Positions 3,948-57,572 of a stretch of DNA of 64,000 nucleotides are shown piece after piece. The stretch lies in contig JALMQS010000889.1 of assembly GCA_024734495.1 (NCBI GenBank), positions 205,378-269,377 on the forward strand, written 5' to 3'. The stretch is from Forficula auricularia. Taxonomy: Eukaryota; Arthropoda; Insecta; Dermaptera; Forficulidae. Both the position numbers and the translations under genes were made by a program. The first letter of the stretch is position 1. Every line of letters begins with the position of its first letter. The notes under the pieces are model-generated. The model did no database searches, was not told the origin of the DNA, and saw only the letters and a program-made list of their open reading frames with translations.

Positions 3948-4003
3948 ATAACGAGACTATAGTTTCGAGGGCCTTGCCCTCTTCATCAGTCCATTACAAT
4001 GGA
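3948..4003 (-). ncRNA. Hammerhead ribozyme-like motif, family 1
   Basis: Read on the minus strand: CUGAUGA (3983-3989), one unpaired A, helix II GAGGGC/GCCCUC with a 3-nt loop, GAAA (3963-3966), self-complementary ACUAUAGU helix III, then the C of the expected cleavage site. Helix I can pair with one bulge. The core is as in type I hammerheads apart from the extra A before helix II. Confidence 0.65.
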
Positions 4004-4103
4004 TTCACAGGAATTAATTTATGAATGAAAGTTTAAAATCTTTCATGTGGTTAGGTTAAGAAAAGATTTTAAACTTTCATTCATAAATTAATTCCTGTGA
4101 ATA

Positions 4104-4160
4104 CATTGTAATAGACTGATGAAGAGGGCAAGGCCCTCGAAACTATAGTCTCGTTATAAA
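4104..4160 (+). ncRNA. Hammerhead ribozyme-like motif, family 1
   Basis: CUGAUGA at 4116-4122, extra A, helix II GAGGGC-AAG-GCCCUC, GAAA at 4139-4142, palindromic ACUAUAGU, predicted cleavage after C4150. Helix I: AG/UC, one bulged A, then seven further pairs including two G-U pairs. Paired in inverted orientation with the motif at 3948-4003. Confidence 0.65.
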
Positions 4161-4252
4161 TAAATAAAATTTATAATTCCAGCAGAAGACACACTCTTTT
4201 ATTGTCTCCTTCAATATATAAAAATTCTGCTACTCTCGGCAAAAACTTTCAA

Positions 4253-4873
4253 TATTTATATATATATAAATATAAACAAACAATTTTTGCTCGTTTAATA
4301 AGAGTAGATAGATAGATTTATATATATATGCTATTTTTAATTTGTCTGTGTGTGTGCGAGAGTGTGTGAAATTATAATAATTAAAATGATATACAAATGG
4401 TTTATAACCTTTCTCTGTCCCATTTTGTAAAAAAATAGAGGGTATTGCATTTTGCATTTGAAAAATTTCTTTTTTAAAATAACTTACTTAAATTTGTCAT
4501 GTTTGATTGTTTTTTTGTTTTGTTTAAACCAAAGACAATACTGGTCTTAAAATTTGTTTCTAATTCGCCTATACATTTTTTTAAACTCCATACATAGCTC
4601 CTATAAAAACAAAATTGAAACCCTATATAGGTATTGCGAAAATTGATAATTAATTATAATTCCATTGATTGTTGCATAAATATCAACAAACGGTTTATTT
4701 TCGAAAATTGTATTTATTTAGTCAGTAATTTTTTTACCAAGTGTGAAATTAAAAACAAACAAGCTCAGAAGTGAATTAATTATTTAAAAAAAAAATTTAT
4801 TTTTCGACTTTTATATTACGCAAATGATCTACTATCAAATACAATATATAAGTTTGAATTATTTTTCCTTTTT
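4253..4873. other. AT-rich stretch, no gene seen
   Basis: Homopolymer runs and short TA repeats only. Open frames here are short and have no recognisable motif. Confidence 0.6.
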
Positions 4874-4881
4874 ACATAGAC

Positions 4882-5810: not shown

Positions 5811-5818
5811 ACGTAGAC

Positions 5819-6301
5819 AAAGCGTTTAATTCATATTCATCTTCATTACTTCTTCCATGAATTAATTCATTTTTCAAAATACTTTAATTAAATCACTCTA
5901 AAGTAAAATTTCATTTCACTTAATATAATTATTTTTCATTACAACTCGGGTTAAAATGTGTTCAGATTTGATTAATATTTTTTCCAGATATCATTTTAGG
6001 TGTAAAATAAAAGTCTCTGTTCATATATAAATGATAATTTTACTTTTAATGTAAATTTCTTAAGAATTGTTTTTCATAATTTTTATCTCTAACGAAAAAA
6101 ATATATATTCCGATTATAAATTTATTCTAGATGTGATTTTTACTTTAAATATAAAATAATTTATTTCACTGAAACTTAACTTAAGCGATTTCTGATGAAT
6201 TATTTTTCCCACAAATACACACACACACACTTTCTTCATTTCCTAAAACTTTTCAAATTATTATTATTATTATTCTTTTCGCTCCTTTGGAAGGATGTTT
6301 G
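5819..6301. other. AT-rich stretch, no gene seen
   Basis: A short (CA)n run at 6217-6230; nothing else recognised. Confidence 0.6.
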
Positions 6302-6309
6302 TTCTATAC

Positions 6310-7137: not shown

Positions 7138-7385
7138 TTCTATACTATACATCGGCTGTAAACAGCAGAGAGGATAGCTTCTGTTTTATTATTGAATTGT
7201 TAAGCAAGGTTCAGGAACCTCCCCTATTATTAATATTATTTTATTTTAATTATTGTCCCTGGGAACATAACCCATTTAGACAGCACATAAGTATTTTTTT
7301 TTTATTTAATTTAACATGATTATTCTAATTTTGTATTTCATGATATTTTAATTACTTAATCTTATGATTTTATCTGTAGTTTAAA

Positions 7386-9407: not shown

Positions 9408-9491
9408 GTAAGAAACCCTTTAGGATTGATAGTCTTTGGGTCTCAGATTGTCGAATGTTGTTTTATATGTCGTTAGGGCCTTTTCTTTCAG

Positions 9492-10845: not shown

Positions 10846-10887
10846 TTATATACAGGGATTTTAAGTGAGTTTACTTGCCAAAGTAAG

Positions 10888-14535: not shown

Positions 14536-14693
14536 TGAAGGAGACAATAAAAGAGTGTGTCTTCTGCTGGAATTATAAATTTTATTTATTTATAACGAGA
14601 CTATAGTTTCGAGGGCTTTGCCCTCTTCATCAGTCTATTACAATGTATTCACAGGAATTGATTTATATAAAAAACGGCAAAAACTTTCAATTT
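14536..14693 (-). mobile_element. Retrozyme family 1, single copy with 12-bp target duplication
   Basis: AGTACAAGGGAT is present at 14524-14535 and again at 14694-14705, and the uninterrupted host sequence is visible in the sister repeat near 29233. The 158-bp insert begins TGAAGGAGACAAT and ends ACTTTCAATTT, which defines the unit. It has no ORF and no poly(A). It contains the hammerhead motif at 14588-14642. Confidence 0.75.
14588..14642 (-). ncRNA. Hammerhead ribozyme-like motif, family 1
   Basis: Minus strand: CUGAUGA, extra A, helix II GAGGGC-AAA-GCCCUC, GAAA, ACUAUAGU, C. All core positions are intact apart from the extra A. Confidence 0.65.
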
Positions 14694-16620: not shown

Positions 16621-17017
16621 GTTATAGAAATTATTTAAACTTAGGCGGTCCAATTATTTAAAATTAATCGCAAAAAGGAACTAAGTTCGATAAAAATCAA
16701 TTTTTTTAATTGCAATTAAGTTCAAAATTTTGCGCAAAAATAAATTAAATTTAATTTAATTCTGGCTGCAAATAAAAATCAACATTTTTAACTGAATGTA
16801 CAATTAAAAATAATATTAGTACCTACATCGTTTTTAACCCAAGCAAAAAATTACCCAGTAACGTTTCCATTCCATCTCGGATCAAGTGGATGACATCTCT
16901 CGTGATTTCCTTATCAGTAAAATTGTATGATAATATTGAAGATTTTAAAAGTCTTCTGTTGCCTTGAAGGAGCTTCGCAACCGAATGTTTCTATTACAAA
17001 AATAGTCAAAATTTATA

Positions 17018-18635
17018 CAGGGTGATTCACGGTCGATGTCACGTTAGACGTTTATGGAAAACGGAAGGCAGGATTTTTCTGATAATTTAGCACCTTACAT
17101 TTTCTTACCTGTTCTATCGAACTAAAATATTTTCAGCATTGCGACGTTTCGGCTTCCACCGAAAAGTCGTAGCAATTTTATTTTTTTAAATGGAACACCC
17201 CGTACGTTTTTAAATTGAACACCGTACGTTTTAGAACCGACCTTTTATTAAAATACTTTTTTGTTTATATTTTCCTATACCTATCTCTATCGGTTTTCGA
17301 GATAAAAGTAATTTGTGTTAAATATCGTCCAAAACATCGCCCTAATTAAACTTAAATAAATTAGTCCTCTCAATTCATGAAAAGTTGATATTTTGGTGGT
17401 AGTTTAGACACACTCGAAGTATTTAATATACGCCGAAAAATCGAGTCCATATTATACAGGGCGTGCTAAGATTACTATTATTTCCGGTATTCGTAAAAGG
17501 GGTCAAAATTCGTTTTCTCAAATGAGACCCCGTATATTAATCAATAAATTGAAAGACGAAGAAAAATGCTTTAAGACGATATATCATGTCCCTATGCCTA
17601 AAACATCAAGTTTTCTTAATAAAACCGCTTTTTCGTGAAAAATTATATTTTAATGAATTTAATTTTAGCTAATCATGGAAATATCAAGCTTATGATCGTT
17701 TGTTGACTATTTATAAGAAACTTATAAACAGTTTATTGACGATGTTCAAAAAAATCTCCCAAAATTATACCAAATATTGATTATTCAAACGAATATAGTA
17801 CAAACGAATATAGTACAAAATAAATAATTTCAAACTAAGTTCTACAAAATAAATAATTTCATAAGAACTTCGTTTAAATAATCAATATTTGCGGTCAATT
17901 TGGGAGATTTTTTGAACATCGTCAATAAACTGTTTATAAGTTTAATAGTCAACAAACGATCATAATAAGCTTGTTATTTCCATGATTAGTTAAAATTAAA
18001 TTCATTAAAATATAATTTTTCACGAAAAAGCGGCTTTATTAAGAAAACTTGATGTTCTAGGTATAGGGACATGATATTTCCTCTTAAAGCATTTTTCTTC
18101 GTCTTTTAATTTATTGAGTAATATACGGGGGGGGGGGTCTTATTTGAGAAAACGAACTTTTGACCCCTTTACGAATACCGGAAATAATAGTAATCTTAGC
18201 ACGCCCTGTATAATATGGAGTCGATTTTTCGGCGTAAATTAAATACTTCGGGTGTGTCTAAACTACCACCAAAATATCAACCCTTCATGAATTGAGAGGA
18301 CCAATCTATTTAAATTTAATCAGGGCCATGTTTTGGACCATATTTAACACAAATTATTTTTTATCTCGAAAACCGATAGAGATAGGTATAGGACAATATT
18401 AACAAAAAAGTATTTTAATAAAAGGGTGGTTCTAAAAACGTGTCAATATACGGGGTGTTCCATTAAAAAAAATAAAATTGCTACGACTTTTCGGTGGAAG
18501 CCGAAACGTCGCAATGCTGAAAATATTTTAGATCGATAGAACAGGTAAGAAAATGTAAGGAACTAAATTTTCCGAAAAATCCTGCGTTCCGTTTCTCATA
18601 AACGTCTAACGTGCCATCGACCGTGAATCACCCTG
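17018..18635. mobile_element. 1.6-kb TA-flanked foldback element
   Basis: Starts CAGGGTGATTCACGGTCGAT and ends with its reverse complement, each next to TA (17016-17017, 18636-18637). Inverted arms extend nearly to the centre (about 17825), over about 750 bp each with scattered differences. No ORF. Related terminal CAGGGTG sequences occur at 5096, 50643, 58487 and 59618, so several TA-targeting families share this end. Confidence 0.75.
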
Positions 18636-18637
18636 TA

Positions 18638-19024
18638 TATAGCATTCCGAGACTTTTTGAAAATCATTCCTCCAATTAAAAAGTTAGTCAATATCTAAAT
18701 TGACTTCACTTTTGAGAAATCGAGTCTCTCTCATGTACCCATATAATAAACATGGTATTTTTTCTTTTTTTATTCCCTCCAGGATGAATGGAATGGCCTT
18801 GGCTGGCAGGGCACCTCTACAATCTCGAGTTTAATCATATTAAAAGTTAACAAGACGTATATTTTCTTCTAACTCTCCTATTTTGTTGGGCAAACACATA
18901 TATTTGTCGTTGTTAAAGTTACAGTAGCTGAAAAGCAGAAAGCATATTCATTATTTTTCTGCTTTTAATCATAAAGAATTAAAAAGTTTGGAGTCGGACT
19001 GGTAAATTTAATATTGTAGGATTT
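18638..19024. other. AT-rich stretch, no gene seen
   Basis: Nothing recognised. Confidence 0.6.
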
Positions 19025-19320
19025 GGATGAGGCAGTCCAGATTCAAAACAAGAGAAATCAATATCCAACGAGATGTCATTTAATTAGACAAAGCTTTTTT
19101 CACTCTTTATTTTTTTCAAAAGCCGACGTTTCGGAGGTTTTTTCCCTCCTTCTTCAGGGTTTTGAAAAGGTCATTGAAGAAAGTACTATTGGAAAGTTTT
19201 TATTTTGCTGAGAGTAGTAGAGTTATTAAATCATAAAGAGAAACAAAGAGGTTTTCCTCTGCTTGATGCAAATAAACATACTCACATACTATATATATCA
19301 AAATTATATATCTGTATAGA
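19025..19320 (-). mobile_element. Retrozyme family 2, left arm
   Basis: Starts CAGTCCAGATTC and runs through a hammerhead motif and the tail 'GAGAGTAGTAGAGTT' to 'AGAGGTTTTCCTCTGCTTGAT' and CAAATAAACATA. The reverse complement of all of this lies at 21078-21320; the two arms enclose a different foldback element. Confidence 0.6.
19111..19170 (-). ncRNA. Hammerhead ribozyme-like motif, family 2
   Basis: Minus strand: CUGAAGA (position 7 is the variable one), extra A, helix II GGAGG/CCUCC, GAAA, palindromic ACGU as helix III, cleavage-site C. Helix I is strong: CC/GG, one bulged C, then nine A-U and G-C pairs (TTTTCAAAA with TTTTGAAAA). Confidence 0.7.
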
Positions 19321-19326
19321 TATGGA

Positions 19327-21077
19327 TGGGGAATTCCACGCCAAATCGGACAATTTGAAAAATTTTAATTTTTTGACATTTTTTAGTACCCATCAAAAAA
19401 TCTTCCTGGTTGTCTAAAATTCAAATTTTAGTATTTTTTATTTTATAAAAAAGCGAAGCTCATGCGTCTGGCGGGCCTATTTCGAGTTAGAGAATGAAAA
19501 CAGAGCAAGCCAGTTCAGTTTGAAAATTTTACTCTTACCTTGCACACTTGCTTGCAAATTGGATAGGAAACAGTATATTGAGTATTAGTTTTACTATAAA
19601 GAAGTTCGTTCAGTATCAGCCATTTTAGTGTTCAAGTTACCAGGATATGAGATCTCTATTGCGGCTTCTCCTATAATAATTAAACCTTGAAACCAGATTT
19701 CGAATCTGTTATAACTGGAATGAGGATTGAAAAGGATTGTCTACAGAAGCAGTTTGCATTTGAACGACCGCCCACCTTATTGAAAATCAGCATACTACAT
19801 TCAACATATGTAAATATTTCCTCAATGATCATCTCATTAAATTATAAATATAACTAATTTATGGCTTTACAATTTATTAAAATAAAAATAAAATAAACCT
19901 TCCTTTTAATACATAAGTATCGAGAACAATTAGCATCCATACAGTCCACTCAGTTACATCAGTTTTTTAATAAAGGTTCCAGTGACATCCAGAAAGAATC
20001 TACAATTTATACATCGGCACTTCGGAGCTAGATGAGATTTCTTTAATTTTATACACTGGTAAATTTTGAAATTTTTTTGATCATCAGTTAAAAGATATCG
20101 AATTTCGGTTTTTCCTTTATAACTGTATTAAAAATGTTTCAAATTCAAAATTTTTTATACAAAATACAAAAAATTATTTAAAATGTTTTTATATGGAATA
20201 GATAATCTTGTTTTTGAAACTGTATGTACTCTTCGATATTTTTAGGAAATTTTTTATTTAAAACTTCTATTCATTCTACAAATTTTAAGACCAGCTGGAT
20301 AGTGGGCCTAAGATAATTACTATTTTTTTCGATTTTTGAAAATTTCGAAAATATTTTATTCGCTATTAACCATTATTAAAACCACTTTTTGGCATTGAGT
20401 TCTCTTTTTTTAGTTATTTTCAATTGATTTTTATCGTTAACGGGTGTTTAAAATAAGTAATTAGTATTTTAGTTTGTTGAAAGAAAAATCAAATTCAAAA
20501 ATCGAAAAAAAAATAGTACCTAATTATCATAGGACCACTATCAACCCGGTCTTAATATTTATAGAATGAATAGAAATTTAAAATAAAAAATTATCAAAAA
20601 AATCGAATAGTACATACAGTTTCAAAAACAAGATTAAAATTTTCAAACTCAAAAATCCCATATAAAAACATTTTAAATAATTTCAAAAACAAAAACAAAA
20701 TTGAATTTGGACCATTTTTGAAGAAGTTATGAGCGAAAAACTGAAATTCGAAATCTTTAAACCGGTAATAAAAAAAAAAAAAACATTTCCTGGTAAATTT
20801 TGGAAATTTTTTGATCACCGGTTTAAAAAGATAACGAATTTCGGTTTTTCGCTCATAACTTCTTCAAAAATGGTCGAAATTCATTTTTTTTTTTGAATTT
20901 ATTTAAAATGTTTTTATATGCGATTTTTTAGTTTGAAAATTTTAATCTTGTTTTTGAAACTGTATGTACTTTTTATTTTATTTCTGTAAATCATTGATTT
21001 TACAAATGTCAAAAAATGAAGGAAATCAAAAATTAAAATTTTTTTAAAACCGTTGATTTGGCGTGGAATGCCTCACA
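19327..21077. repeat. Foldback element, GGCATTCCACGC family, carrying a solo LTR
   Basis: Outer ends GGAATTCCACGCCAAATC and GATTTGGCGTGGAATGCC match the foldback at 6582-7101. The block 'AAGATATCGAATTTCGGTTTTT' recurs in both arms. The left arm is interrupted by the LTR at 19411-20055. Confidence 0.6.
19411..20055. mobile_element. Solo LTR (645 bp) with 5-bp target duplication
   Basis: Starts TGTCTAAAATT and ends AATTTTATACA, an 11-bp inverted repeat with one mismatch and TG...CA ends, flanked by CTGGT at 19406-19410 and 20056-20060. The family's uninterrupted sequence (CCAGGTAAATTTTG at 6678, CCTGGTAAATTTTG at 20785) shows the empty site. No internal region is present, so this is the recombination product of an LTR element. 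Gypsy, Bel-Pao or Copia cannot be told apart without internal genes. Confidence 0.75.
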
Positions 21078-21320
21078 CATATTTATATTTTATATATATG
21101 TATTTGTGATGTTTATTTTCATCAAGCAGAGGACAACCTCTTTGTTTCTCTTTATGATTCAACAACTCTACTACTCTCAATAAAATAAAAACATTCCATG
21201 AGTACTTTCTTCATTGACCTTTTCAAAACCCTGAAGAAGGAGGGAAAAACCTCCCTAATTAAATAACATCTTGTTAGATATTATTTCTCTTGTTTTGAAT
21301 CTGGACTGTCGCAATTAAAT
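21078..21320 (+). mobile_element. Retrozyme family 2, right arm (hammerhead broken)
   Basis: Reverse complement of 19025-19320. CUGAAGA and the helix II arms persist at 21231-21254, but GAAA and helix III are missing (CTCCCTAATT), so this arm could not cleave. Confidence 0.55.
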
Positions 21321-22067
21321 TCTACTTACAATACAAAAAGAATGAATTCAATTAATTCTTTCTAAAATACGAGAAATTGTTGTGCGAAAATTCTATTTTA
21401 AAAAAAGTATCAATGAACAGAATAATAAATATTTGTTGTTGAGGTGTTGAGATATGGGGGTGTGAAGAATATGTTCTTTTTTCTTTCCAATAAATCTTTT
21501 CTCTCTTTTAACAAGAAAAAAAATTCCAGAAACATTTTAAATCAAGGCCGAATCTTTTGATAAAAATAAAATATTGAATTAAAATCAAATTTAAACATTA
21601 AAAAAAAAAAAAAATGTCAGAAAATGACGAAGAGACGAAAATAAATGTATTCAATTGAGTTTGATATTGATTCAATTTTTTTTTAATGGTTGGTGATAAT
21701 TTAAAAATAGATTTAGTCAGAGTTACATAAAAATGTTAACACAAATGCAATTGGAAATGACACTGGCATGTGGTGGTTAGTACTTGCCTGGGTCTCTTTT
21801 ACTTCGCCTTTAATCGATACTAATACTGAATTCACTTATTTTTTTTGTTCATAGTGAATAAAAATGTCATTTTTCATTCATTCACTTACAAAAAATATGC
21901 ATTCTATATAAATTTTGGTTTTATCGAACTGAATTCGTATGTATTTGATTTTAAATAATTGAACCTCGGTAAGTTTAAATAACATCAATGATTCAGCCTG
22001 CAAAGTCCGCAGTCCGATAAATCATTTCACTATTATAGTATTTATTATTTTTTATTGAAAAGGAAAA
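21321..22067. other. AT-rich stretch, no gene seen
   Basis: Nothing recognised. Confidence 0.6.
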
Positions 22068-23975: not shown

Positions 23976-24959
23976 AAATAGAATCTTGTTTTTGACTTAA
24001 TTTATATTTAAAGTATTGATTGAAATTTATAAAATATTTTTTATTTTCATTTGTTAATTTTGACATTTTTGCTTTTACTTTAATTTTTTTCCTTGTTGTG
24101 GAGGAGATTTCTCTTTATGAACCAACAACTCTGCTACTCTCGGCAAAACAAAATCTTTTCAATTTAATTTATTAACTACGGGCAAAAATTCAGCGCCGCC
24201 TGGTTAGTAGCAGGGTATGCATTCGTATGGAACGCTTTGTGATACGGGTTGCATTCTCAGGCGCTTTAACTAATTTATGGAAAATATTAAATATTTAAAA
24301 TATTTATCTACTATTATCATCTTAATAATCATCGAGTTTATAATCCTAATACTGTTTAGACGCCACAACCCGGTTATAGCTTATAGCGCACAAATGGTGC
24401 TTCAAAATATAAATTGTTACATAATTATCAGTTTTCCTCATTGTGAGGCTGATATATACATGAAAGATTTTTTGTGATTTTCTCAAAAACGGCTCAAACA
24501 ATTTTTTTTTTCAAAATTGGTATAGGTACTTATCTAGTGTCATACGTTGTTAATCGTGTATAAATTTTAATCCGATCGAAATATAGGAAGAGGTAAACAG
24601 AGGTTAGAAGAAGTACCTCAAGATTTTGGCCAAAATCTATGGTAAGTACCCCAAGTACATGTTTACTTGAAAATTTTTGTCAATTGCATCTTTATTTCGG
24701 TTTTCTCAAAAAGGCTTGGGGAAATCCAAATTGAAGTAATTTGAATGAAGAAAATTAGTATGATGATTTCAAATAAGGGAGAAACTAATGTGAAATTCGT
24801 GTGGTGCCCACACCAGTTGAATAATTTTGAACCACACAAAAAATTCAACCCTTCTCAAAATAAATATCTATTAAAATTTTATTTTAATTTTTCATTTCAG
24901 AAAACATGTATACATAAAAATTGAAATTATATCAAGCTTGAGTTGTTTGTCATAAAGGA
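23976..24959. other. AT-rich stretch with a retrozyme tail fragment (about 24105-24165)
   Basis: The sequence 'CAACTCTGCTACTCTCGGCA' at 24125-24146 is the minus-strand retrozyme tail also seen at 49738-49758. The rest shows no gene. Confidence 0.5.
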
Positions 24960-25325: not shown

Positions 25326-25850
25326 AGATAATAATTGTTTTGTCAAAATGTCTGTTAGTCTGGTTGTCGAGTTAGTTAGTTAGTCTGTGCGTTACCAAAT
25401 TTTTGTGGACGAGCTAGCTCAAAAACCAGTGTGAATATCGAAACCAAATTTCACAGGTAGTTTTGGTCCATTGAGATTAAGAGCTGACTAGATTTTGGTG
25501 CATATAGACCCACAATTGGGGGGTGGCGGGGGGGGGTTAAAAATTAAAAATCTAGGCCATTTGACCAAACTCCACCAAATTTTGTATACATAATCAGTGG
25601 ACCCCCAGAAGTCTAAAAATGCAAAAATAACCGCCCAAAATGGGGGAGGGGGTGGGATGGGGGGTCAAAAAATGTAAATTTTGGCCATTTACCAAACTCT
25701 ACCAAATTTTGTATAGATAGATACAGTGGGACACCAGAAGTCTAAAAATGCAAAAACTAACCACCCCTCACATGATTATAAATAATTTTAGGGGCCAGAT
25801 TGTATGATAAAGTCAAGTGGATGGCCACATCAGAACACGTCAGCTTATTT
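25326..25850 (+). repeat. Composite dispersed repeat, copy 1
   Basis: Runs from 'TCGAGATAATAATTGTTTTG' through 'GACGAGCTAGCTCAAAAACC' and two units of the 'CAAATTTTGTATACATA' minisatellite to 'CTGATGTGGCC'-type sequence. The whole block is repeated in reverse at 33118-33660, and part of it at 28370-28560. Non-coding. Confidence 0.65.
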
Positions 25851-26142: not shown

Positions 26143-27020
26143 AGGTCATTCAATAAGTTCGTAGGATGACACATAGATGGCGTTACTAGAATGTTTCCAT
26201 ATGATTTTTATTTAGTACTAACCTTCAAACGATACGTGTATAAATTTCACAGCAATCTGACTATTGATTCGTGAGTTATAGCATTTTGTGTGTAGCAACT
26301 TTTGTTATTGAAAAAGTGAATTTCATTTTTAATAAAGCATTGCTTTTTGATGAAAAAAAATACAGTGGAAACCAAACAATGGCTTGATAAACATTATCCG
26401 AACTCTGCTCCCTCGAGACAAATGGTAGAGAAGTGGATTGCTGAATTTAAACGTGGTCGTACCAGCACAAATGATGCAGAGCGCAGTGAACGCCCAAAAG
26501 AGGCTGTTATTCCAGAAAACATAAAAAAAATCCAAAAATTGGTTATGAACGATCCCAAATTGAAGATGGACGAGCTAGCTGACATTGTAAAGATATCAGA
26601 TGCTAGTGTTTTTACCAGTTTACAAGAACATTTGGGTATGCGAAAGCTCTGTACAAAGTGGGTGCCGCGTGAGCTCACAGTCGACCAAAAACAACAACAA
26701 ATCGATGCTTCAGAGGAGTGTTTGGCGCTGTTAAACCGAAATAAAATGGAATTCTATCGTCGATATGTGACAATGGATGAGACATGGCTTCACTATTACA
26801 CACCAGAATACAAAAGAAGTCCAATGATGAAGTAATCGCTGAAACTGAGGCCTATTTTGACGAGAAAGAGAACTCGTACTATAAAAGTGGTATCGAAAAG
26901 TTGGAAAATCGCTATACTCGTTGTATCGCCCTCGAAGGCAACTATGTTGAATAATATAATCGAGTTTTGTCAAAATTTTCTTTTTTTCTTACTTATCCTA
27001 CGGACTTATTGAATGACCTG
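26143..27020 (+). mobile_element. Internally deleted mariner element
   Basis: Terminal inverted repeats GGTCATTCAATAAGTTCGTA (left) and the reverse complement of the right end differ at one position over the first 20 bases, next to TA-containing flanks. It carries the transposase remnant at 26350-26954. At about 0.88 kb it is shorter than the 1.3 kb of complete mariners. Confidence 0.85.
26350..26954 (+). pseudogene. mariner transposase, large internal deletion and frameshift
   Basis: 26350-26820 encodes the N-terminal part: a helix-turn-helix segment (SAPSRQMVEKWIAEFKRG), an acidic linker with RSERPKE, a second helix-turn-helix ending EHLGMRKLCTKWVPRELT, and the first catalytic Asp in VTMDETWLHYYTPE. 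After 26822 the sequence jumps to the C-terminal tail (VIAETEAYF, YKSGIEKLE, CIALEGNYVE, stop 26952-26954), one frame off. The catalytic region with the second and third Asp of the D,D34D triad is deleted, so it cannot transpose by itself; its intact ends could still be used in trans. It resembles mariners of the mauritiana/irritans type. Confidence 0.9.
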
Positions 27021-28654: not shown

Positions 28655-29610
28655 GACCAAAATGAAGCCCCTTCTCTATTTGTTTTTGTTGATTTAAACG
28701 TTTACTTGAACCATTTTTTTGTAAAAATTCTTAGATTTATAAATATCCAACATTTTCAATTACAGAAAATGATCAATTGATTCAAAAATAGAGATTTTTC
28801 CTTCATAAAATGAAAACCACTCATCCAAGAAACTTGAGTTCTATCTCATTGTCTAGGAAATTTTGTTGACCAACGTTTACTTGGACCACTATTTTGATCA
28901 AACTCTTTGATTTATAGATATTCTACATTTTCTGGACAGGATATGATCCGAATCCTCAAAACTTAATGGAAAATGCTGGATATCTATAAAGTTTATCAAA
29001 AAAGTACTCGCAAGTAAACGTTCAAGTCAACAAAATTTACTAGAGAATGAGATAGGAATCAAGTTTCTAGAATGATTGCAATAGGATATTTTCAAAACTT
29101 CAACCTCATGTTACCATTATCCAATTAGAATGAAACTTTATTTAAATTGTAGCAAATTTATTCTAGTTTAAAAATGTATAGAGTCGTCTTTGTCGAAAAC
29201 GTGCTCCTTCATGGTCAAAATGGGGAAAAATCGAAAAAAGTACGAGTTTTAGGGATATTCAAAAGTGATCCTGGGGGCTGTTTTTTGACAGGCGCTAGTA
29301 CCGGTTCTACTGAACCTAAATAGATGAAATTTTTATCATTTTACGCATAATTTAAAGAGCTTTAATTTATCTAATAAATATCTTTTTGATTTGATAAGCC
29401 GTTTTAGAGTTATTCAAGAAAAACTGAAAAAACTCCGAAATTTTCTCATTTTGAGGCGCGTAGAAAAATTTCCACAACACAGATTTGGGGGAAAACTTAG
29501 GGTAGTAATATTGGAGTACCAATAAAGGTATTCCAGCAATAAAATCTTTACCGGGAATTATTTCCTGTTTATGCCATTTTTTCACGTAATTTGCCTGGAC
29601 TAGATTCCTA
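28655..29610. repeat. Foldback-derived repeat, TAGTCCAG family
   Basis: Parallel to 13990-15037 but without the retrozyme insertion. Includes the hairpin at about 28905-28990 and ends AATTTGCCTGGACTA. The minus-strand open frame at 29367 is a fortuitous translation of the repeat. Confidence 0.6.
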
Positions 29611-35530: not shown

Positions 35531-36421
35531 AGATATTCATACATACTGGTGAAGCTAATATAAAGCGACTAAAAATATGGACGCCATTGAGTTCAATTAT
35601 TTTCTATTTTTACTTTATCTTACAGGGTAAACTATAACTAGCATATTTATCTATTCCATTGCGATATAATACACCAGAAAAATCAAGAGTTCAATCATAC
35701 TTCATTTTGGTTAATTTTCAAAATATAAAAGATTTAATCCTTTCATCTGACCAAATTCGTTCATATCACTACAAAATAAATGTCTTTTCTTCTTTTGAAT
35801 TCGAAATTCCAATTTTTCTTTTCTTCAAAGTATGATCGATTCCATTTTCTATGGTAAATATTGTATCGTCGAATTGAAAATCATAGAGCATAGAGATTTT
35901 TCATTTTTATAGTGTGTAAGTAAATAACTTAGTAAAAAAAAGGATAAAGTGATTGAAAATATGAGAATAATGTTAACAAGATTTAAAAGGCTATCACTAT
36001 ATGGATTTTAACAAAAAAAATATACATAGGGAAAACCCTTTAGAAAATAATAATAATGTAAATTATCTGGCAAGAGTTATTTTTATTATGCTATTTATTT
36101 TGTTTTGGATTAAAGCACACATGATGTAAAGTAGATAGAAAATTATTCCGCCTCCTTTCAGTAGTAGAGATGGAGAGAAATATAAAATAAACTGCTGGCT
36201 CTGAGAGCTCGAGATTTAAAGCAAGATGAATCAAATGGGAGAACGAAATGTGCTATAAAGTGCGAGATAGAGTTTAAATTGTCAGATCTCCTTTAATAAA
36301 CTACTTGGAGTGGGGATTGATTTTGAGAGATTTTTTGATAAAAATTTATTAAATAAAATATATTTTTCATTAGAATTTTGCTGGCTTGGTGTGTACTGGA
36401 TGGATATATTAATTTTTAATT
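35531..36421. other. AT-rich stretch, no gene seen
   Basis: Nothing recognised. Confidence 0.6.
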
Positions 36422-36479
36422 GTTAAAGGATAAATAAATTGAATTGCTTCTTTCCAGTAATTTATTTTATTATTCAAAT

Positions 36480-36542
36480 GGTTAATCCAAATATTTCGAG
36501 AGCGCTTGCGGCATCTCTTCCTCACTGGAAACCACTTCCCCA
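36480..36542 (-). ncRNA. Hammerhead-like motif, family 3, core mutated
   Basis: Mirror of the plus-strand motif, but the first core base is G instead of C (GUGAGGA). C3 pairs with G8 in active hammerheads, so this copy is predicted dead. Confidence 0.5.
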
Positions 36543-36730
36543 CCAATGTGCCGACCCCATCATTAAATTTCATTCGGACTTCATTGTGAATAGATGTAAA
36601 TAGTTGTATATAGTCGTATGTTATCTCAGTTTCTGAATTTGTGTATGTATATATGTATATGTATATGTATATGGTGTTTAATCAAGCTTTTATCAATGTT
36701 CTGTACAAACTGATGGAGTCGGCACATTGG

Positions 36731-36798
36731 TGGGGAAGTGGTTTCCACTGAGGAAGAGATGCCGCAAGCGCTCTCGAAATATTTGGATTAACCATTTG
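36731..36798 (+). ncRNA. Hammerhead ribozyme-like motif, family 3
   Basis: CUGAGGA (36748-36754), extra A, helix II closed by GAGA/UCUC, GAAA (36776-36779), AUAU helix III, U as the cleavage-site base. Helix I: UCCA/UGGA, a two-base bulge, then about eight pairs (GUGGUU with AACCAU). A C is usual at the cleavage site; U is tolerated. Confidence 0.6.
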
Positions 36799-36984
36799 AA
36801 TAATAAAATAAATTACTGGAAAGAAGCAATTCAATTTATTTATCCTTTAACAATAAAAAATATATTATATTTTAAAGTTCTGGAGTAAATTGATGAGAGT
36901 TCATTAATTCAATAAATTCTGCATATTCATTATTCATACTTTTACTTCCCGAAATGAAAGAAAATACGGAACGCTTTTCTAATT

Positions 36985-37075
36985 TGTTTTGCCGAGAGGA
37001 GAGAGTTGTTGATTCATAAAGAGAAATGAATGAGGTTGTCATCTGCTTGATCCAAATAAACCATATCTTTCGTTG
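36985..37075 (+). mobile_element. Retrozyme tail fragment
   Basis: 'GCCGAGAGGAGAGAGTTGTT' and 'ATGAGGTTGTCATCTGCTTG' followed by CAAATAAACC, the conserved tail of family 1/2 copies. No hammerhead core remains. Confidence 0.55.
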
Positions 37076-45437: not shown

Positions 45438-45708
45438 GTTTATATCAGCGGTCGGAGAACCGTAAATTCCCAAATAGGGTAACAATGAAATCTATTCGGG
45501 GGTAATAACGACATTTTTTTAAATTTTCCATTTTATAAACTATTATAGTATTTTTACTTTGATAGCCGAGGACTGTATTCAAATTGCGCTCACGTCAAAA
45601 AGTTCAATTTTGAAGTCATTTTAGCGAAAATGAAACAACGTCATTTTCTCAAAACGTAAAAGCGTTTGAATTATGTTAATGTTTACAATTTTTATTTACT
45701 TACAGATA

Positions 45709-45943
45709 TTGAAGGTGACAATAAAAGAGTGTGTCTTCTGCTGGAATTATAAATTTTATTTATTTATACTGAGACTATAGTTTCGAGGGCTTTATTGCCC
45801 TCTTCATCAGTCTATTACAATGGATTCACAGATTATCTCGTTATAAATAAATAAAATGTATAATTCCAGCAGAAGACACACTATTTTATTGTCTCCTTCA
45901 ATATATAAAAATTCTGCTACTCTCGGCAAAAAAACTTTCAATT
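45709..45943. mobile_element. Retrozyme family 1, foldback copy with 11-bp target duplication
   Basis: ACTTACAGATA occurs at 45698-45708 and 45944-45954. The left arm carries a minus-strand hammerhead; the right arm is shortened and lost it. The right end shows the CTGCTACTCTCGGC tail. Confidence 0.75.
45760..45822 (-). ncRNA. Hammerhead ribozyme-like motif, family 1
   Basis: Intact CUGAUGA, extra A, GAGGGC/GCCCUC with a 6-base loop (AAUAAA on the minus strand), GAAA, ACUAUAGU, C. The loop differs from the other copies while the stem is kept. Confidence 0.6.
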
Positions 45944-45956
45944 ACTTACAGATAGT

Positions 45957-46132
45957 TTGAAGGAGACAATAAAAGTGTGTCTTCTCCTGGAATTATAAAT
46001 TTTATTTATTTATAACGAGACTATAGTTTCGAGGGCTTTGCCCTCTTTATCAGTCTAATACAATGTATTCACAGGAATTAATTTCTGAATGAAAGGTTAA
46101 CATCTTTCATGTGGTTAGGTTTGCGGGTAGGT
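45957..46132 (-). mobile_element. Retrozyme family 1, second insertion at the same site, core mutated
   Basis: Begins TTGAAGGAGACAATAAAAG directly after the duplicated target of the neighbouring copy. On the minus strand its core reads CUGAUAA (G8 to A), predicted inactive. The tail is GGTTAGGTTTGCGGGTAGG instead of the CTCTCGGC tail. Confidence 0.65.
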
Positions 46133-46948: not shown

Positions 46949-47788
46949 GGTTTGGAAAGTAATTGTATTCTTTACATTTATTCAGATAATAAATTCTATT
47001 TGAGAAATTTGATAACTTCTTATTTAGTGAATTAATCAAATAAATAATAATAATTAAATAAAATTATTGTCTTTTATTAGTTTGTGTCTAAAAAATACCT
47101 TTCAATTTAAAAATTGAGTCACTTAAGTTCTGGAAGAATTTTATAATGAATATATTTAATATTAATGTACTCTAATTAAAATGTTCAGCGTAGATACTTG
47201 ATAGCTAAACTTAATATTGATAGATATTAATGTAATAAAATGAATCAATAATTCCATTGGCCCGGTCGAGAGTAACATTTATTTGCCAATGGGGAGCCAG
47301 ATTGAGCCTTGATTCTCGCATTCTGCACGGAATATTCAAGGGTGAAATTTCAAGACGAAGGTATTTACCGAGGGCGGGTTTTAAAGGATTGTAGGAATCG
47401 GTTAAGTGGGCGTCTGGGCTTGGGAATCCCCCCCCCCCGAGGGGGAGAGAGGCAGAGGGGGATGCTCAGCCAGGGATAACAAGATGCTCAGCCACGGGTA
47501 CAAACTACAGTTCAAAACTTTTTACTAGATGAAGAGACACTAAGCTTTGATTAGAAGAAAAAGTGAAAAATCATCCTCTTATCCGAAAAGATTAAATTTT
47601 TACATTTATTTATTTTAAGAAAAAAAAAAAAAAAAAAAAGGAAAAATAATGAAAATATTATTTCATAAGGAGAAATCAATGAGGTTGTCCTCTGCTTGAT
47701 GCAAATAAATTTTTATTTGTTTATTTAAAGCCTTTTTGATTGCAATTATTATTATTATTTTTTTACATTTAATTTGATGGAATCATGC
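46949..47788. other. No gene; GC-richer block and a retrozyme tail
   Basis: 47250-47510 is less AT-rich with C10 and G-rich runs and 'GATGCTCAGCCA' twice. 47665-47708 has the retrozyme tail 'ATGAGGTTGTCCTCTGCTTG'. Confidence 0.45.
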
Positions 47789-48174: not shown

Positions 48175-48245
48175 TTTATTTAAAATCCAAACGTTTCTGG
48201 AGAATTTCTCCCTTTATCAATGGAATTTTAAGAACTTTGAAAAAT
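48175..48245 (-). ncRNA. Hammerhead-like motif with a compensatory core change
   Basis: Minus strand UUGAUAA, extra A, GGAGA-AAU-UCUCC, GAAA, ACGU, U. C3 and G8 are replaced by U and A, which could still pair. Helix I remains long: UCCA/UGGA, one bulge, AAAA/UUUU and more. Confidence 0.4.
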
Positions 48246-48737: not shown

Positions 48738-48807
48738 TATATATAAATAATTATTTATTTGTTAGAGACGATAGTTTCGTAAGTTTGAACTTAATCATCA
48801 ATCTTTT

Positions 48808-48950: not shown

Positions 48951-49054
48951 TATTTAGAAATATTCTATCTGTTATTTCGCTTGGTTTGTAATACCCGATT
49001 GAATGTAGGTAAATTCATTTTGTTGTAATAGCAAGCTGATTACATAACAAATGA

Positions 49055-49774
49055 CATAGAGAAACAAAGAGGTTGTCCTCTGCTTGATGCAAATAAACAT
49101 ACACACATATATATCGAGATGATATATATGTATATATATTAATTATTTATTTGTTTGAGACTATAGTTTCGAAGACTTGGTCTTCATCATCAGTCTTTTT
49201 ACTTTATTTAATTATAAATGTTGTTTTTCATGTAGTCAATATCGTATGGATATTGAAAATGTGATGTTCTTTTGCTGGTTGGCAGCTTAGAATTAAAGAC
49301 ATTCTTTTGGTTCACATTTAAATATAACCATATGTTTCTCTTTCTCCTTGTTTTACAAAGAGATAGGCTGACAATGGAAGGGGGTTTGTTTTTCTTTTTT
49401 CTTTTATCTTTTGTTAGCAAACATCTTAAGCAAATTGCTATTTGATAATTCAATTTGGCTGTTCAAACAAAGTTTTGAATTTTTATTGAATGATTTCAAA
49501 ATTTCTAACGATTCAATTTGAAACGATTGAAAGGCTGCGTGTTTATGTGACATTGGTCGATATTGACTCCATGAAAAACAACATTTATAATTAAAAAAGA
49601 TGAAGACCAAGTCTTCGAAACTATAGTCTCAAACAAATAAATAATATATATATACAGATATATCATCTCGATATATATGTGTGTATGTTTATTTGCATCA
49701 AGCAGAGGACAACCTCTTTGTTTCTCTTTGTGAATCAACAACTCTGCTACTCTCGGCAACACAAAAACTTTTCA
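49055..49774. mobile_element. Retrozyme foldback of 720 bp with 16-bp target duplication
   Basis: ATTACATAACAAATGA flanks it at 49039-49054 and 49775-49790, so arms and spacer came in as one unit. Inverted arms 49060-49245 and 49555-49737 share AGAGGTTGTCCTCTGCTTG, TATATATCGAGATGATATA and the hammerhead region; a 300-bp spacer differs from other copies. The right arm lost CUGAUGA. It ends with the CTGCTACTCTCGGC tail and AAAACTTTTCAA. Confidence 0.75.
49148..49205 (-). ncRNA. Hammerhead ribozyme-like motif, covarying helix II
   Basis: Minus strand CUGAUGA, extra U, GAAGAC-CAA-GUCUUC, GAAA, ACUAUAGU, C. Compared with GAGGGC/GCCCUC of the other copies, paired positions in helix II changed on both sides. 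Helix I is the weakest of the set. Confidence 0.6.
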
Positions 49775-49790
49775 ATTACATAACAAATGA

Positions 49791-51645: not shown

Positions 51646-51654
51646 TATGTTGCA

Positions 51655-52475
51655 GTAAAAACGCGTTTTGCTGAATTCCTTTATAGCAATTAGAGTTTAC
51701 TGATGTTGGATGAGTTTGGTTCAAAGGTCTAGAATATTCATTTTTGACCTTCCGCCTCATTTCGTGTTTATTTTCAAAAATTTTTTAAACAAAATGTCAA
51801 AAATTACATCCTCTACAACTTTTATTCTAATTTTTGACATTTTTACTAAAAACCCGTTTTTTAGTAAGAACGCGTTCTTACTAGTTAAAACGCGTTTCGC
51901 TGAATACCTTTATAACAAGTAGAGTTTACTGATGTTGGTTGAGTTTGGTTCAAAGCTCTAGAATATTCATTTTCGACCTTCCTCCTCATTTCGTGTGTTT
52001 ATTTTCAAAATTTTTAAACAAAAATGTCAAAAATTATATCCTCTACAACTTTTCTTCTGATTTTTGACATTTTTACTAAAAACCCGTTTTTTAATAAGAA
52101 CGGGTTCTTACTAGTTAAAACCCGTTTCACCGAATACCTATGTGGCAACTAGAGTTTATTTATGTTGGTTCAGTTTGGTTCAAAGGTTTAGAATCTTCAT
52201 TTTTTGGGAGTTTATTTTCAAAATTTTTTCAACGAAAATGTCAAAAATTACATTCTTTAGAACTTTGCTTCTAATTTTTGATATTTTCGTATAAATTTTT
52301 TTGAAAATAAACACCCAAAATGAGGCGGAAGGTCAAAAATGAATATTCTAGACCTTTGAACCAAACTCAACCAACATCAGTAAACTCTAGTTGCCACAAA
52401 GGTATTCATTGAAACGCGTTTTAATTAGTGAGAACCCGTTCTTATAAAAAACGGGCTTTTACTGCAACATATATA
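51655..52475. repeat. 230-bp tandem repeat, three units plus an inverted unit
   Basis: 'AGAGTTTAcTgATGTTGG' recurs at 51692, 51921 and 52151; the last unit turns back on itself so that 'ACATCAGTAAACTCTAGTTG' appears inverted at 52374. Each unit includes 'AGTAAGAACGsGTTCTTACT', a GC-bearing palindrome. Same family as the foldback at 30735-31335. Confidence 0.7.
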
Positions 52476-53494: not shown

Positions 53495-53496
53495 TA

Positions 53497-54414
53497 CCAA
53501 GTGTACCGGAAAGTCATTACTGGTTTTTCCAACAGATGTCGCTAGGCTTAAGTATGCAATGTTATGATTTGACACATAAGCATTTTATTCTACTGACATC
53601 AAGCTTCAAAGCTATACATGTTATATTTTGCGAAAGTAACACCTTCATAGATTTATACCTCTTTGAAAATGTCAAGTTTCATGCCTGAAAACGTGCATTT
53701 GCGGCACGCATTACTTTTCTTATTTAATCAAAAGAAAAAAGCCGCTGAAAGTCATCGTTTGCTGGTAGAAACTTACGGTGAGCATGCTTTAACCTTAAAA
53801 ACATGTGAGGTGTGGTTTCGAAAATTCAAAAGTGGTGATTTCGATGTGCAAGATAAAGAACGTTCTGGTAGACCAAAAAAGTTTGAAGATGCGAAACTAC
53901 AGGAGTTATTGGATGAAGACCCAACCCAAACTCAAAAACAATTGAAAAAACAATACACCGACAACAAATGATCAGTTTGAACCATGCATTGATCGAAAAC
54001 GTCCAGAATAGGCCCGAAGACACGGTAAAGTGATTTTACAACACGATAACGCGCCGTCTCATAAAAGCAAAACCGGTCAAGGAAGCGTTGAAAGCACTTG
54101 GGTGGGACATATTATCGCACCCGCCGTACTCTCCAGACCTTGCCCCGTCCGACTATCAACTTTTCGCATCGATGGGACACGCGCTTGCAGAGCAGCACTT
54201 CGCCAATTTCGAAGAAGTTAGAAAATGGCTCGATGAATGGTTTTGCTCAAAGGACAAACAGTTTTTTTGGGATGGCATCCATAAATTGCCAGAAAGATGG
54301 GCAAGATGTATAGAATCAAATGGCCAATACTTTGAATAAATAAATTTTCCATTTTCTTAAAAATTGCGTAGTTTTTTTTCGAAAAAACCGGTAATGACTT
54401 TCCGGTACACCTAG
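53497..54414 (+). mobile_element. Internally deleted mariner element, second family
   Basis: Ends CCAAGTGTACCGGAAAGTC and the reverse complement of GACTTTCCGGTACACCTAG, next to TA on both sides (53495-53496, 54415-54416). About 0.92 kb, carrying a transposase remnant. Confidence 0.85.
53669..54339 (+). pseudogene. mariner transposase, internal deletion, frameshifts
   Basis: 53669-53950 encodes the N-terminal helix-turn-helix domain (HALLFLFNQKKKAAESH, CEVWFRKFKSGDFD, the SGRPKKF linker). After a deletion the sequence resumes in the catalytic domain: HDNAPSH (second catalytic Asp) near 54040, then HPPYSPDLAPSDYQLF with the third Asp, HFANFEEVRKWL and the C-terminal WARCIESNGQYFE before the stop at 54337-54339. 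The first Asp is missing, and one stop and frame changes lie between 53970 and 54090. It differs from the transposase at 26350 in sequence and ends; it resembles mariners of the mori type. Confidence 0.85.
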
Positions 54415-54416
54415 TA

Positions 54417-55509
54417 TAATTAAATATGTATGTAAACTTTCCGATATCTCGTATAGTGCAATGTATAATAGTCTGAAAAACTCTATCTTTGGAATTTAAT
54501 ATCTCGGTAACTATATTTTTCATAAATTTCATTTTGCCACCAATCGATACAGAAGTATTTAAATAATATTCGGTCTAAATTTCAAAAAAATTTCAAGAAA
54601 ACCCATAATATGGGAAACAACTACCTTAAACGAATATTGTTAGCTTAAAAACCAATTACTTTCCCGATTGAAGCTAAAAATAGCATTACCATTTGAAACT
54701 ACTTAGTGTATGTATATGTTAATGATCAGACAATTTATTTATTTATTCTCTTTCGTCTCTGTAGTGCAAATAATGTATCCATCCTTGGGTTATTTTCGCA
54801 TCAGCTAGCTTTAATTTGAACAAATTAAACTATTGTTTAAATTAAGGGTTTGTTTAGTTTTTGTGGACATAATTAAGTTAAACAATCAGAATATCTCCTC
54901 TAAGAGAATTTGTAAAAACACCATTAATAAATAGAGAGCGACTGCGATTTATGCAACTCGACAATGTTACTTTTTTGGACATTAAAGAGATTAATAAATA
55001 TATCTGTTATGTCATTCTCTTTCTGGATTTAGATACCCAAGATAACTCTAGGACAGAAAAGATCGTAGAAAAGTTCATTCTCGTGCTAAAGGGTTTGAAA
55101 TTTCACAAAACAGAATTGGACAGATTAGTTCAGTTAAATTGTGCTACAAAAGGGCCGCTAGTTGGAAAATTTTGGGGTAGTTTTGATCATAGAGTGGAAG
55201 GGTCCATAAGGAGCCAATGTATTTTAGCGTGTACGAGTTACAGAGCTCTCTGGTGAGACCAGGGCGAGAACATTGGGCGGGAACCTCTCTTCCGGGCAAA
55301 TTTTGGTGACGTCACAAACAGGTAATGGGTGATTCGAAATATTTTATCAAGAATAAAAAATGCGCTTATATATATTTATAACACAAATGGTATGTATCTT
55401 TTAACTATGACAAAGGCTTTGAAAGTTCTATAATCTTTAGATAGCTTTTAAGAATTTTCGCCCTGCAGACGCTAGAGAGCGCTTTTCGATCTATGGAAGC
55501 CTTACTCTA
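54417..55509. other. No confident gene; one 101-codon open frame
   Basis: 54951-55256 (+) is open with an ATG start and mixed composition (YVILFLDLDTQ, KIVEKFILVLKGLKF) but has no motif I recognise and no splice or promoter context. 55390-55515 is the partner of the inverted repeat at 50490. Confidence 0.35.
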
Positions 55510-55995
55510 TGGTTTTGATTTCTTTTATCCTATATGTTTTTTGGTGTGCTGAATCCGAATCTGAGGTTTGCTAACAAAATTTCGTGACGGAACATTGTAA
55601 AAAATTCAAAAAAAGGCAAACAATCTTTTTGCCTATAACTCGAAAACTATTAACTTTTCGTAAATAATCTTTCTACACAAAATGAAATTATACATAAAAT
55701 TTGCTACAAATTTTATCATTTAGGTTTTTTTCTCCGACCAACTGTTCGGGCTCAAGGGCTAGATGAAAATTGGCGTATTTTAATTATCTCCGCAAAAACT
55801 CACTTTTTTCACTCCAAAATTAAAATTTATTATTAAAGGCTGTCAATTAGTGAATTACTCCCAATGTTCCGTTAGGAAATTTTGTTAGCAAACCTCAGAT
55901 TCGGATTCAGCACACCAAAAAACATATAGAAAGGAAGAAATCAAAACTACCCCAAAACTTTCCCAGGTAAAAAGACAATTTTACTGGAGGATATT
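55510..55995. repeat. TAGTCCAG-family foldback, short derivative
   Basis: 'GTGTGCTGAATCCGAATCTGAGG' type sequence (about 55544) is inverted at 55897-55925, and 'ACCCCAAAACTTTCC' marks the right arm. Confidence 0.55.
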
Positions 55996-56726
55996 GTATT
56001 TTGGAGTTTCTAGCTTTTCAGATTGTTAAAAATTGAAAACAATCTAGTATGAGAAGCTCATGAATTGTTGTAATTGATTGATGAGTTGAAATTTGGCATC
56101 ACTTATTTTTGTTTTATCTTTATCCGGAATTTCTGACTCAAATAGTTTTCAGAAAATACCTGAATCCCTCAAATTTACACAGAGCATACTGAGTCTTAAA
56201 AAGTTCCCACCCCTTTTATATAAATTTATATATTAATATTAGTATAATATTAATACGAGTATTAGTGTTGTTATTCACAATGGCAAATTGGTCCAAACAT
56301 GTTTTCGAGTTCATTTAAAATATGTTTTAATTATATTATATAATATTACTATTTAGTAAATTCCTTGAATATTTTATTAATTATGAATGCTTGGGATTTT
56401 CATTAATTATTTATTCACAGAAATACTTCTGTTTAATAGAAATGAATATTCATTTGGTCTAAATGTAATTGCCTCTATTCTTATGTAAATTATGCAAAAA
56501 CTATGGGCATTACTCGATAAGCCCATGCCTAGAATTGAATTAAAGCCAAAATTTCCAATTACCTCCCTCATTATAGTGAAAAATGTCTGGAATGTGAAAT
56601 AAATAATTTTCAATCTTGTCGATATTCTAATACACACACTAATTAAGAATGAACTGTCAAAGAAACTTCAATCTTGTGCTAAAATACTTGTGTTATCAAT
56701 AAATTCAATTAAATTTTATTTTTCAG
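55996..56726. other. AT-rich stretch, no gene seen
   Basis: Possible intron upstream of the exon candidate at 56727. Confidence 0.5.
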
Positions 56727-56794
56727 GTCTACAAATCATCTGCTGGTTGAATCTATTAAGCCATCTCTACAACCGTTCATCTTAACCGAGAAAT
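56727..56794 (+). CDS. Candidate 68-bp coding exon, unidentified gene
   Basis: Acceptor TTTTATTTTTCAG and a strong donor GTAAGTAC. Entered in phase 2 it is open and reads STNHLLVESIKPSLQPF then ILTEK. That phase matches the end of the exon at 9742, so both could belong to one plus-strand gene with a very long intron. Another phase gives an early stop. No homology recognised. Confidence 0.35.
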
Positions 56795-57375
56795 GTAAGT
56801 ACACATTTAAAATTATACTCATTTAAATCCGCATTTTAGAGAGGCTTAAAAAAGTGATTTTTTTTCGAGATATTCCATCGAAATTATAATCATTTAAATC
56901 TATTTAAAATCTACTTTTAAAATGGGTTTAATTTTTTGAAAATTAATATATTTTTTTCTATAAATTCTCAATCAAGTTGATAAGTGTCCCCCCTTTGAAT
57001 CAATGTCAATTTTTAGAGAGGTTTAAAAAAGTGATTTTTTTGAGATATTCCATCGAAATTATACTCATTTAATCTATATAAACCTACTATTTAAAATACG
57101 TTTAATTTTTTTGAAAATTAATATATTTTATTTCTATAAATTCTCAAGCAAAGGGTCCCCCTTTGTAGCAATGTCTCTTTTTAAAGAGGCTTAAAAAGTG
57201 ATTTTTTAAGAATTAATATTTTTTCTAATTCATAAATGCAGAAAACATTTTTTGAATGATTGTTTTGAGATTTTAAGCCGATGTATTTATAATATATTAT
57301 ATTCATAATTGAAGAAGTTATATTATATTTAATTACATAATATTATTGGTGTTGTTATCGTCCAATGTGAATATT
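56795..57375. other. AT-rich stretch with a degenerate direct duplication
   Basis: 'AGAGAGGCTTAAAAAAGTGA' near 56838 recurs in modified form near 57014 and 57174, about 165-175 bp apart, indicating three diverged tandem units. Confidence 0.5.
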
Positions 57376-57572
57376 TTTCTTTGTAGCTGGTTATTGGGTA
57401 ACTTAACTTCCTCGTTAATAACTATACGTATTTTTATTTATTACGAGGAGGTTAAGTTTAAAAATTGCCTGACGAAGCAGAAAAATATACCGCGAAACGT
57501 AGCAACATTTTGAAAATTTAACTTCTAATTTATTTCAAGTCCAAATACCCAATAACCAGTCACAAAGTTAAA
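57376..57572. mobile_element. Retrozyme family 4, foldback copy
   Basis: 'GCTGGTTATTGGG' (57388) is inverted at 57547-57560, and 'CCTCGTTAATAA' is inverted at about 57440-57453. One hammerhead motif lies between. Confidence 0.55.
57453..57520 (+). ncRNA. Hammerhead ribozyme-like motif, family 4
   Basis: CUGACGA (57469-57475), extra A, a weak helix II (GC/GC with a 13-base loop), GAAA (57494-57497), ACGU, A at the cleavage site. Helix I is strong: UUGC/GCAA, CA bulge, AAAA/UUUU, then UUU/AAA. Confidence 0.55.

Follow-up and report, generated by a model that had tools for sequence, protein, structure and literature searches.

We found hammerhead ribozyme motifs at eight loci in a 64,000-nucleotide stretch of the Forficula auricularia genome (contig JALMQS010000889.1, positions 205,378 to 269,377; called the window here and numbered from its first letter). 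The hammerhead motif in the window is real, and it is probably self-cutting. The eight loci represent five families (A to E) in seven elements, and five of the loci belong to A or D. We consider it likely that these are small hammerheads deficient in helix III, which lie in the pseudo-long-terminal-repeat (pLTR) sequence of rearranged copies of a Penelope-like retroelement (PLE) that lack an open reading frame (ORF). An earlier note on this DNA had proposed eight loci, each with CUGANGA, helix II, GAAA, a short helix III, a cleavage base, and a pairable helix I. All eight coordinates hold, and so does its picture of several families in a mobile-element context with no recognisable ORF of their own. 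The count of eight is also correct, but it reduces to the five families and seven elements, and more broken copies exist (Table 1).

We searched the window with a descriptor consisting of CUGANGA, zero or one base, helix II, GAA, a palindromic helix III (running from A to U), H17, and helix I. In its generic form (helix II of at least 2, helix III of at least 2 pairs, helix I of at least 2, Watson-Crick pairs only), it matched exactly the eight loci of the earlier note and nothing else in the whole window. The chance rate was 0.047 matches per window (from 150 first-order Markov sequences), a figure that serves as a guide, as the descriptors were composed with the loci already known. A stricter descriptor (helix II of at least 4, G-U allowed) recovered seven of the eight loci, missing 57469, with a chance rate of 0.01 per window for each insertion class (100 sequences). 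The type I hammerhead core (CUGANGA ... GAA, A15.1-U16.1, and H17) is present at 8/8 loci, as it is built into the descriptor. Position 7 varies among the families as the earlier note stated: it is U in families A and D, A in B, G in C, and C in E. The note was also right that C17 of the first family A copy is at 4150. A helix II at each locus was claimed as well; this is generally true, but helix II has just 4 base pairs in family C (locus 36731) and just 2 contiguous base pairs in family E (locus 57453, motif at 57469), which is the weakest of the eight loci. The family E motif is flanked by 39-bp inverted ends (57362–57400 and 57546–57584; 82%).

Paired changes count in favour of the hammerhead structure. 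Families A and D are homologous (by blast and alignment), and of the 40 hammerhead positions they share 33. The other 7 comprise the extra base described below, 2 positions in loop II, and 2 fully compensated pairs of helix II; the core and helices I and III are identical. The probability that 7 random differences would all fall within the 18 positions classed as free is P = 0.0017, with the classing made afterwards. Across a helix II alignment of 10 rows (2 of them broken copies), 86.7% of the 60 cells are paired and 5 of the 6 pairs show double changes. Neither the covariation score nor the percentage paired was reached in any of 500 shuffles, and every slid control was lower. The count of further pair types is unexceptional (50/500 shuffles reach it, and a slide of -1 gives 10 versus 8). 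The paired changes that the earlier note described in helix II are real. In a nine-row model alignment that was fitted to the structure, both pairs of helix I change on both sides in 1/9 rows, and the pairs of helix III are invariant.

We also built two covariance models, whose E-values are roughly calibrated. R1, trained on the four family A copies and one family D copy, recovers the independent family B at E = 2.1e-5. It gives a marginal match to family C (E = 0.32) and does not find family E within E = 10 in the window; it also picks up the broken copies at 46013(-), 49596(+), and 48761(-). R2, trained on nine motif matches that include B, gives E = 0.025 for family E and E = 0.038 for family C. 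Families A, D, and B are firm; for C and E, the support comes from the descriptor together with marginal scores in the models.

All eight motifs share two peculiarities. First, one extra base lies between A9 of the core and helix II in 8/8 loci, although the descriptor allowed zero equally. It is an A at seven loci and a U at 49193 (family D). The earlier note placed helix II directly after the core; the core stands and the direct junction does not. Second, helix III is a complete palindrome of 4 or 8 nt at 8/8 loci: ACUAUAGU in families A and D, ACGU in B and E, and AUAU in C. Diminished helix III is a trait of the small Penelope-type hammerheads. Since 4 palindromic nucleotides are too few to fold back into a helix, helix III requires a second strand, and the motifs look like minimal, dimer-type hammerheads. 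The predicted dimer of minimum free energy (MFE) for the family A copy at 45810 includes an 8-bp intermolecular helix III.

Elements D and A45 combine inverted arms, a 3' tail, and a target-site duplication (TSD), which are the three Penelope-type features. A1 has arms and a tail, A14 has a TSD and the last 16 bp of the tail, and C has arms only, with no tail and no clear TSD seen. Across the seven elements, inverted arms are found in four (A1, A45, C, and D), the full 3' tail module ends three (A1, A45, and D), and TSDs of 12, 13, or 16 bp flank three (A14, A45, and D). Only 0.4% of random flank pairs share at least 12 bp. The shared right-end tail is CTGCTACTCTCGGCAA ... CTTTCAA or close to it, and a profile of the pLTR-end/tail module, built from nine of its own copies, has 13 matches, several of them on the pLTR part only. 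At A1, 3885–4220 is self-complementary (93.5%). The arms of element D (49054–49244 and 49558–49731) surround a 0.3-kb centre. A45 has a hammerhead in its left arm only, and the left-arm hammerhead of element C is broken (C3 to G). The family B repeat has a relative at 21028–21325 that lacks the 3' half of the hammerhead.

Table 1. Elements, hammerhead motifs, and related modules in the window.
Feature	Positions	Strand	Remarks
Element A1	3891..4256	+	Inverted-repeat element; 3' tail to CTTTCAA
Element A14	14536..14693	-	158-bp insertion; 12-bp TSD AGTACAAGGGAT (14524, 14694)
Element A45	45709..45941	-	Inverted-repeat element; 13-bp TSD TTACTTACAGATA (45696, 45942)
Element D	49055..49774	+	3' tail; 16-bp TSD ATTACATAACAAATGA (49039, 49775)
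Family B repeat	19016..19373	-	Tail-like module, then hammerhead
Element C	36404..36870	+	Palindrome; arms 80.7% identical
Family A hammerhead, right arm of A1 palindrome	4116..4150	+	Extra A; helix III ACUAUAGU; predicted cleavage after C4150
Family A hammerhead, left arm of A1 palindrome	3955..3989	-	Predicted cleavage after 3955
Family A hammerhead (element A14)	14599..14633	-	Predicted cleavage after 14599
Family A hammerhead (element A45)	45773..45810	-	Predicted cleavage after 45773
Broken family A hammerhead	46013..46058	-	Core G8 to A; same strand as the 45810 copy and about 240 nt upstream
Family D hammerhead	49159..49193	-	Extra U; helix II GAAGAC/GUCUUC; predicted cleavage after 49159
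Family D broken copy, right arm of element D	49596..49634	+	Core CUGA stretch deleted
Decayed family D hammerhead	48761..48806	-	C3 to U; E = 2.8e-7 with the model from A and D
Family B hammerhead	19125..19157	-	Extra A; helix III ACGU; predicted cleavage after 19125
Family B broken relative	21226..21261	+	Without the 3' half of the hammerhead; E = 0.0014 with R2
Family C hammerhead	36748..36783	+	Extra A; helix III AUAU; H17 is U; predicted cleavage after 36783
Family E hammerhead-like motif	57469..57501	+	Extra A; helix III ACGU
Possible decayed hammerhead, further family	48184..48225	-	Core UUGAUAA; helix III ACGU; E = 8.4e-4 with R2 (rough calibration)
Tail module without hammerhead	24098..24161	+	
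Tail-like module without hammerhead	36983..37061	-	Similar module only
pLTR 3' part without tail or hammerhead	47651..47718	-	

The earlier note called these loci retrozymes, which does not fit. Non-autonomous animal retrozymes are small retroelements with a circular RNA, which two type I hammerheads in tandem process, and the copies in the window do resemble them in being short, ORF-less, and AT-rich, with type I-like motifs and TSDs. According to passages of PMC7229834, animal retrozymes are tandem repeats that give rise to RNAs of about 170–400 nt with canonical type I hammerheads; they have tandem monomers, canonical loops, and circular RNA, whereas the window copies lack tandem monomers. 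None of the eight motifs is overlapped by a tandem array (periods up to 500), and head-to-tail monomers of about 170–400 bp with stable type I hammerheads were not found. One pair of same-strand motifs (45810 and 46053) is about 240 nt apart, but a TSD lies between the two, which are distinct insertions, and the core of the upstream copy is broken. Also, helix III is diminished, and the arrangement is inverted rather than direct in 4/7 elements. Overall, the inverted arms, the 3' tail, and the TSDs of 12–16 bp fit a Penelope-like pLTR, and we view a retrozyme origin as very unlikely. The same-strand pair described above arose at 45696–45954, where A45 was inserted right next to another family A copy.

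Another way to explain the motifs is that the elements are foldback DNA elements similar to miniature inverted-repeat transposable elements (MITEs), and that a hairpin-rich arm resembles a hammerhead by chance and has no function as RNA. The window is indeed rich in foldbacks: 26 inverted-repeat spans (arms of at least 60 bp, within 2 kb) account for 25.6% of it. The MFE structures of the monomers in families A, B, and D, which form a rod through the core, also suit MITE-like elements. In contrast, all five families have the core, the extra base, and the palindromic helix III, with compensatory changes among them, and in the monomer MFE structures of families C and E, helices I and II stay in the hammerhead register. 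Furthermore, TSDs of 12–16 bp and truncated left ends suit target-primed reverse transcription better than MITE transposition. We think that a MITE-like origin is improbable.

Several observations weigh against small hammerheads in Penelope-like pLTRs. Because inverted repeats cover so much of the window, a motif lying in one is weak evidence, and we rejected inverted-repeat context alone as proof. The TSD of A1 is ambiguous, with flanks of AT-repeat, and no TSD was found for B, C, and E. A repeat related to the host repeat of A14, at 29095–29451, lacks the A14 insertion; the target letters differ, so it is paralogous and not a clean empty site. With its extra base, the motif is not canonical in the core, in that helix II does not directly follow A9. 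Many of the copies that were found by homology are broken, and there is accordingly no sign of selection once a copy has inserted. Also, no fragment of a reverse transcriptase or GIY-YIG domain was found near the loci by running Pfam on 10 chosen ORFs and by a six-frame motif scan. Finally, Rfam's type I model (RF00163) had no match at its gathering score across the window. It scored 12.4 bits at 4113–4157, versus a gathering score of 34, and it listed no match in the short stretches with hammerheads B and C. This model expects helix II directly after A9. We rejected the alternative core register in its alignment at 4113, which loses C3 and misfits family B. At E ≤ 10, the whole window had no Rfam hammerhead at threshold; microRNA families had no match at their cut-offs, and many of their matches were on inverted repeats or the AT array. 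Taken literally, the covariance-model outcome that the earlier note named as refuting did occur with Rfam (0/8 at the gathering score), but R1 finds B from A and D, although it misses E and is unsure about C. In practice, motifs of this kind go unreported by the Rfam type I model at its threshold.

The predicted folds are also unfavourable. In the monomer MFE structures, A and D form a rod, with a stem that extends across the core, and in B the fold is shifted by one base into the core. Families C and E keep to the hammerhead register, and they are not clearly more stable than shuffles (z of -1.5 and -0.6), versus z of -3.2 to -5.7 for A, B, and D. Among six copies, the energy of the hammerhead dimer exceeded the dimer MFE by 8 to 30 kcal/mol. 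When a palindromic element is folded in full, it forms a long hairpin in which the motif is buried. The hammerhead core is not represented in nearest-neighbour energies, so we take these folds as caution and not as refutation. Because the opposite arm buries the motif in palindromic copies, several of the copies here are likely inert.

We infer Penelope parentage, dimer action, cleavage, and role alike, the parentage because no Penelope protein was found near the hammerhead elements. Among the 10 chosen ORFs, Pfam matched only Ty3/gypsy and helix-turn-helix (HTH) or mariner-like families, and it had no matches for the five ORFs near hammerheads. The six-frame scan found a gypsy YLDD and two isolated FIDD motifs in the palindrome at 17–18 kb, and no GIY-YIG. 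The parent might instead be a Terminon, another PLE-related element, or an unknown retroelement, rather than a canonical Penelope. Similar minimal hammerheads are reported in Terminons in passages of PMC7761336, and no protein was seen in the window copies. But the same passages describe Terminons as giant and telomere-attached, and nothing of that kind was seen in the window, so such a parent is extremely unlikely. As side observations, the right arm of element D (49558–49775) reads open for about 30 codons, starting at an ATG (MFICIKQRTTSLFLF...), and the corresponding tail/pLTR module reading in the family B repeat (19185–19300) meets a stop. This reading is possibly the start of the parent's ORF, or it could be chance.

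If the elements do descend from a Penelope-like parent, then the copies would be either two pLTRs inverted head to head or one truncated pLTR, with a 3' tail in several cases, made by target-primed reverse transcription. In the live parent, each unit would have the motif close to its 5' end. Motifs from two RNAs, or from units in tandem, would pair via the palindromic helix III (ACUAUAGU, ACGU, or AUAU), each would supply what the other's core lacks, and cleavage would follow H17. Cleavage might trim multimeric or read-through transcripts. We also considered that these motifs are a distinct variant, in which an A or U after A9 is obligatory and helix III is always palindromic. The core would then be incomplete alone and would fire only on two-copy RNA, so that the ribozyme acts as a counter of tandem or dimeric transcripts and is switched off via the foldback arm. 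This seems unlikely. With five divergent families in 64 kb, all with an extra core base and a palindromic helix III, the window offers compact natural constructs, which could show whether hammerheads of this class in general dimerise and carry the extra base.

Two other candidates were set aside. The locus at 27577(-), with GAGUA/UACUC and GAAACAUUAAUG, has no U16.1-H17 in register. The palindrome at 17014–18639, with CCGAAACGTC and AUUGC/GCAAU, lacks CUGANGA and was not counted. The arms of this 1.6-kb palindrome are 88% identical, and its ends are ATACAGGGTGATTCACGGTC; both arms contain CCGAAACGTCGCAAT preceded by ATTGC, which amounts to a hammerhead-like 3' half without CUGANGA.

The window as a whole has a G+C content of 31% (averaged over 4-kb steps) and a Ty3/gypsy pol ORF at its left edge (by Pfam). 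Among the best 120 of 7857 relatives of this ORF, those that name an organism are arthropods or are named after an arthropod host. There are mariner-like remnants at 53651–54336 and 26320–26832. The first matches HTH_48 at 53651–53968; its remainder (54034–54336) has no Pfam match and is mariner-like by eye. The 26320 remnant has helix-turn-helix matches below the cut-off only. Short satellite-like tandem arrays are found at 51654–52203 (230-bp units), 56834–57207 (175-bp units), 57775–58348 (119-bp units), and 25519–25766 (129-bp units). Pattern scans of viral contigs and genome contigs gave 3 matches to a 16-mer from the tail and none to the other patterns. Around one of these three, L001, there was no further likeness. 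Three viral-contig stretches that were picked by 16-mer match, 36,762 bases in all, gave no match to R1 or R2.

The extra base has a parallel in the plus-strand hammerhead of chrysanthemum chlorotic mottle viroid. That ribozyme, reportedly the subject of De la Pena & Flores 2001, is of type III, and its extra A sits between A9 and G10.1, where U is tolerated. An extra A in the plus hammerhead is reported in PMC3705267, although this is a viroid ribozyme and is not known as a relative of the motifs in the window. Because an extra A is reported there in a natural hammerhead, membership is still allowed for the window motifs: the extra base lowers but does not exclude their membership among type I hammerheads.

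For the elements themselves, the closest anatomy is that of Penelope in Adineta vaga. Passages of PMC3846280 describe copies with pLTRs of about 200 bp, head-to-head inverted pLTRs, palindromes, and an optional 31-bp tail; TSDs are 8–10 bp, some copies have none, and pLTR pairs without the Penelope ORF occur. The window copies match this anatomy closely: the pLTRs, about 200 bp long, are inverted head to head, the junctions are palindromic, one arm has a short 3' tail, TSDs occur, and the Penelope ORF is absent. The TSDs are longer here (12–16 bp versus 8–10 bp), which counts among the points against our interpretation.

As for the ribozymes, small hammerhead variants of Penelope-like elements are said to have been described by Cervera & de la Pena 2014 and Lunse et al. 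2017. In passages of PMC7761336, published PLE hammerheads are minimal type I motifs, mostly without helix III, that may self-cleave as dimers, and their role in Penelope-type elements is described as unknown. Parts of PMC11167929 report that the hammerhead of an Anolis Penelope cleaved only with its protein and that mutating it did not stop insertion in vitro; they also note earlier work in which PLE hammerheads self-cleave at 3–25 mM Mg2+. The window motifs share with the small PLE hammerheads a minimal type I core, a missing or tiny helix III, dispersed copies, an expected action as dimers, and a pLTR-like location. They differ in having an extra base between A9 and helix II in 8/8 loci and in having no PLE ORF attached. 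Minimal PLE hammerheads are already known (in passages of PMC7761336 and PMC6155905), so what we describe is new within a known kind: copies that carry a curious extra base.

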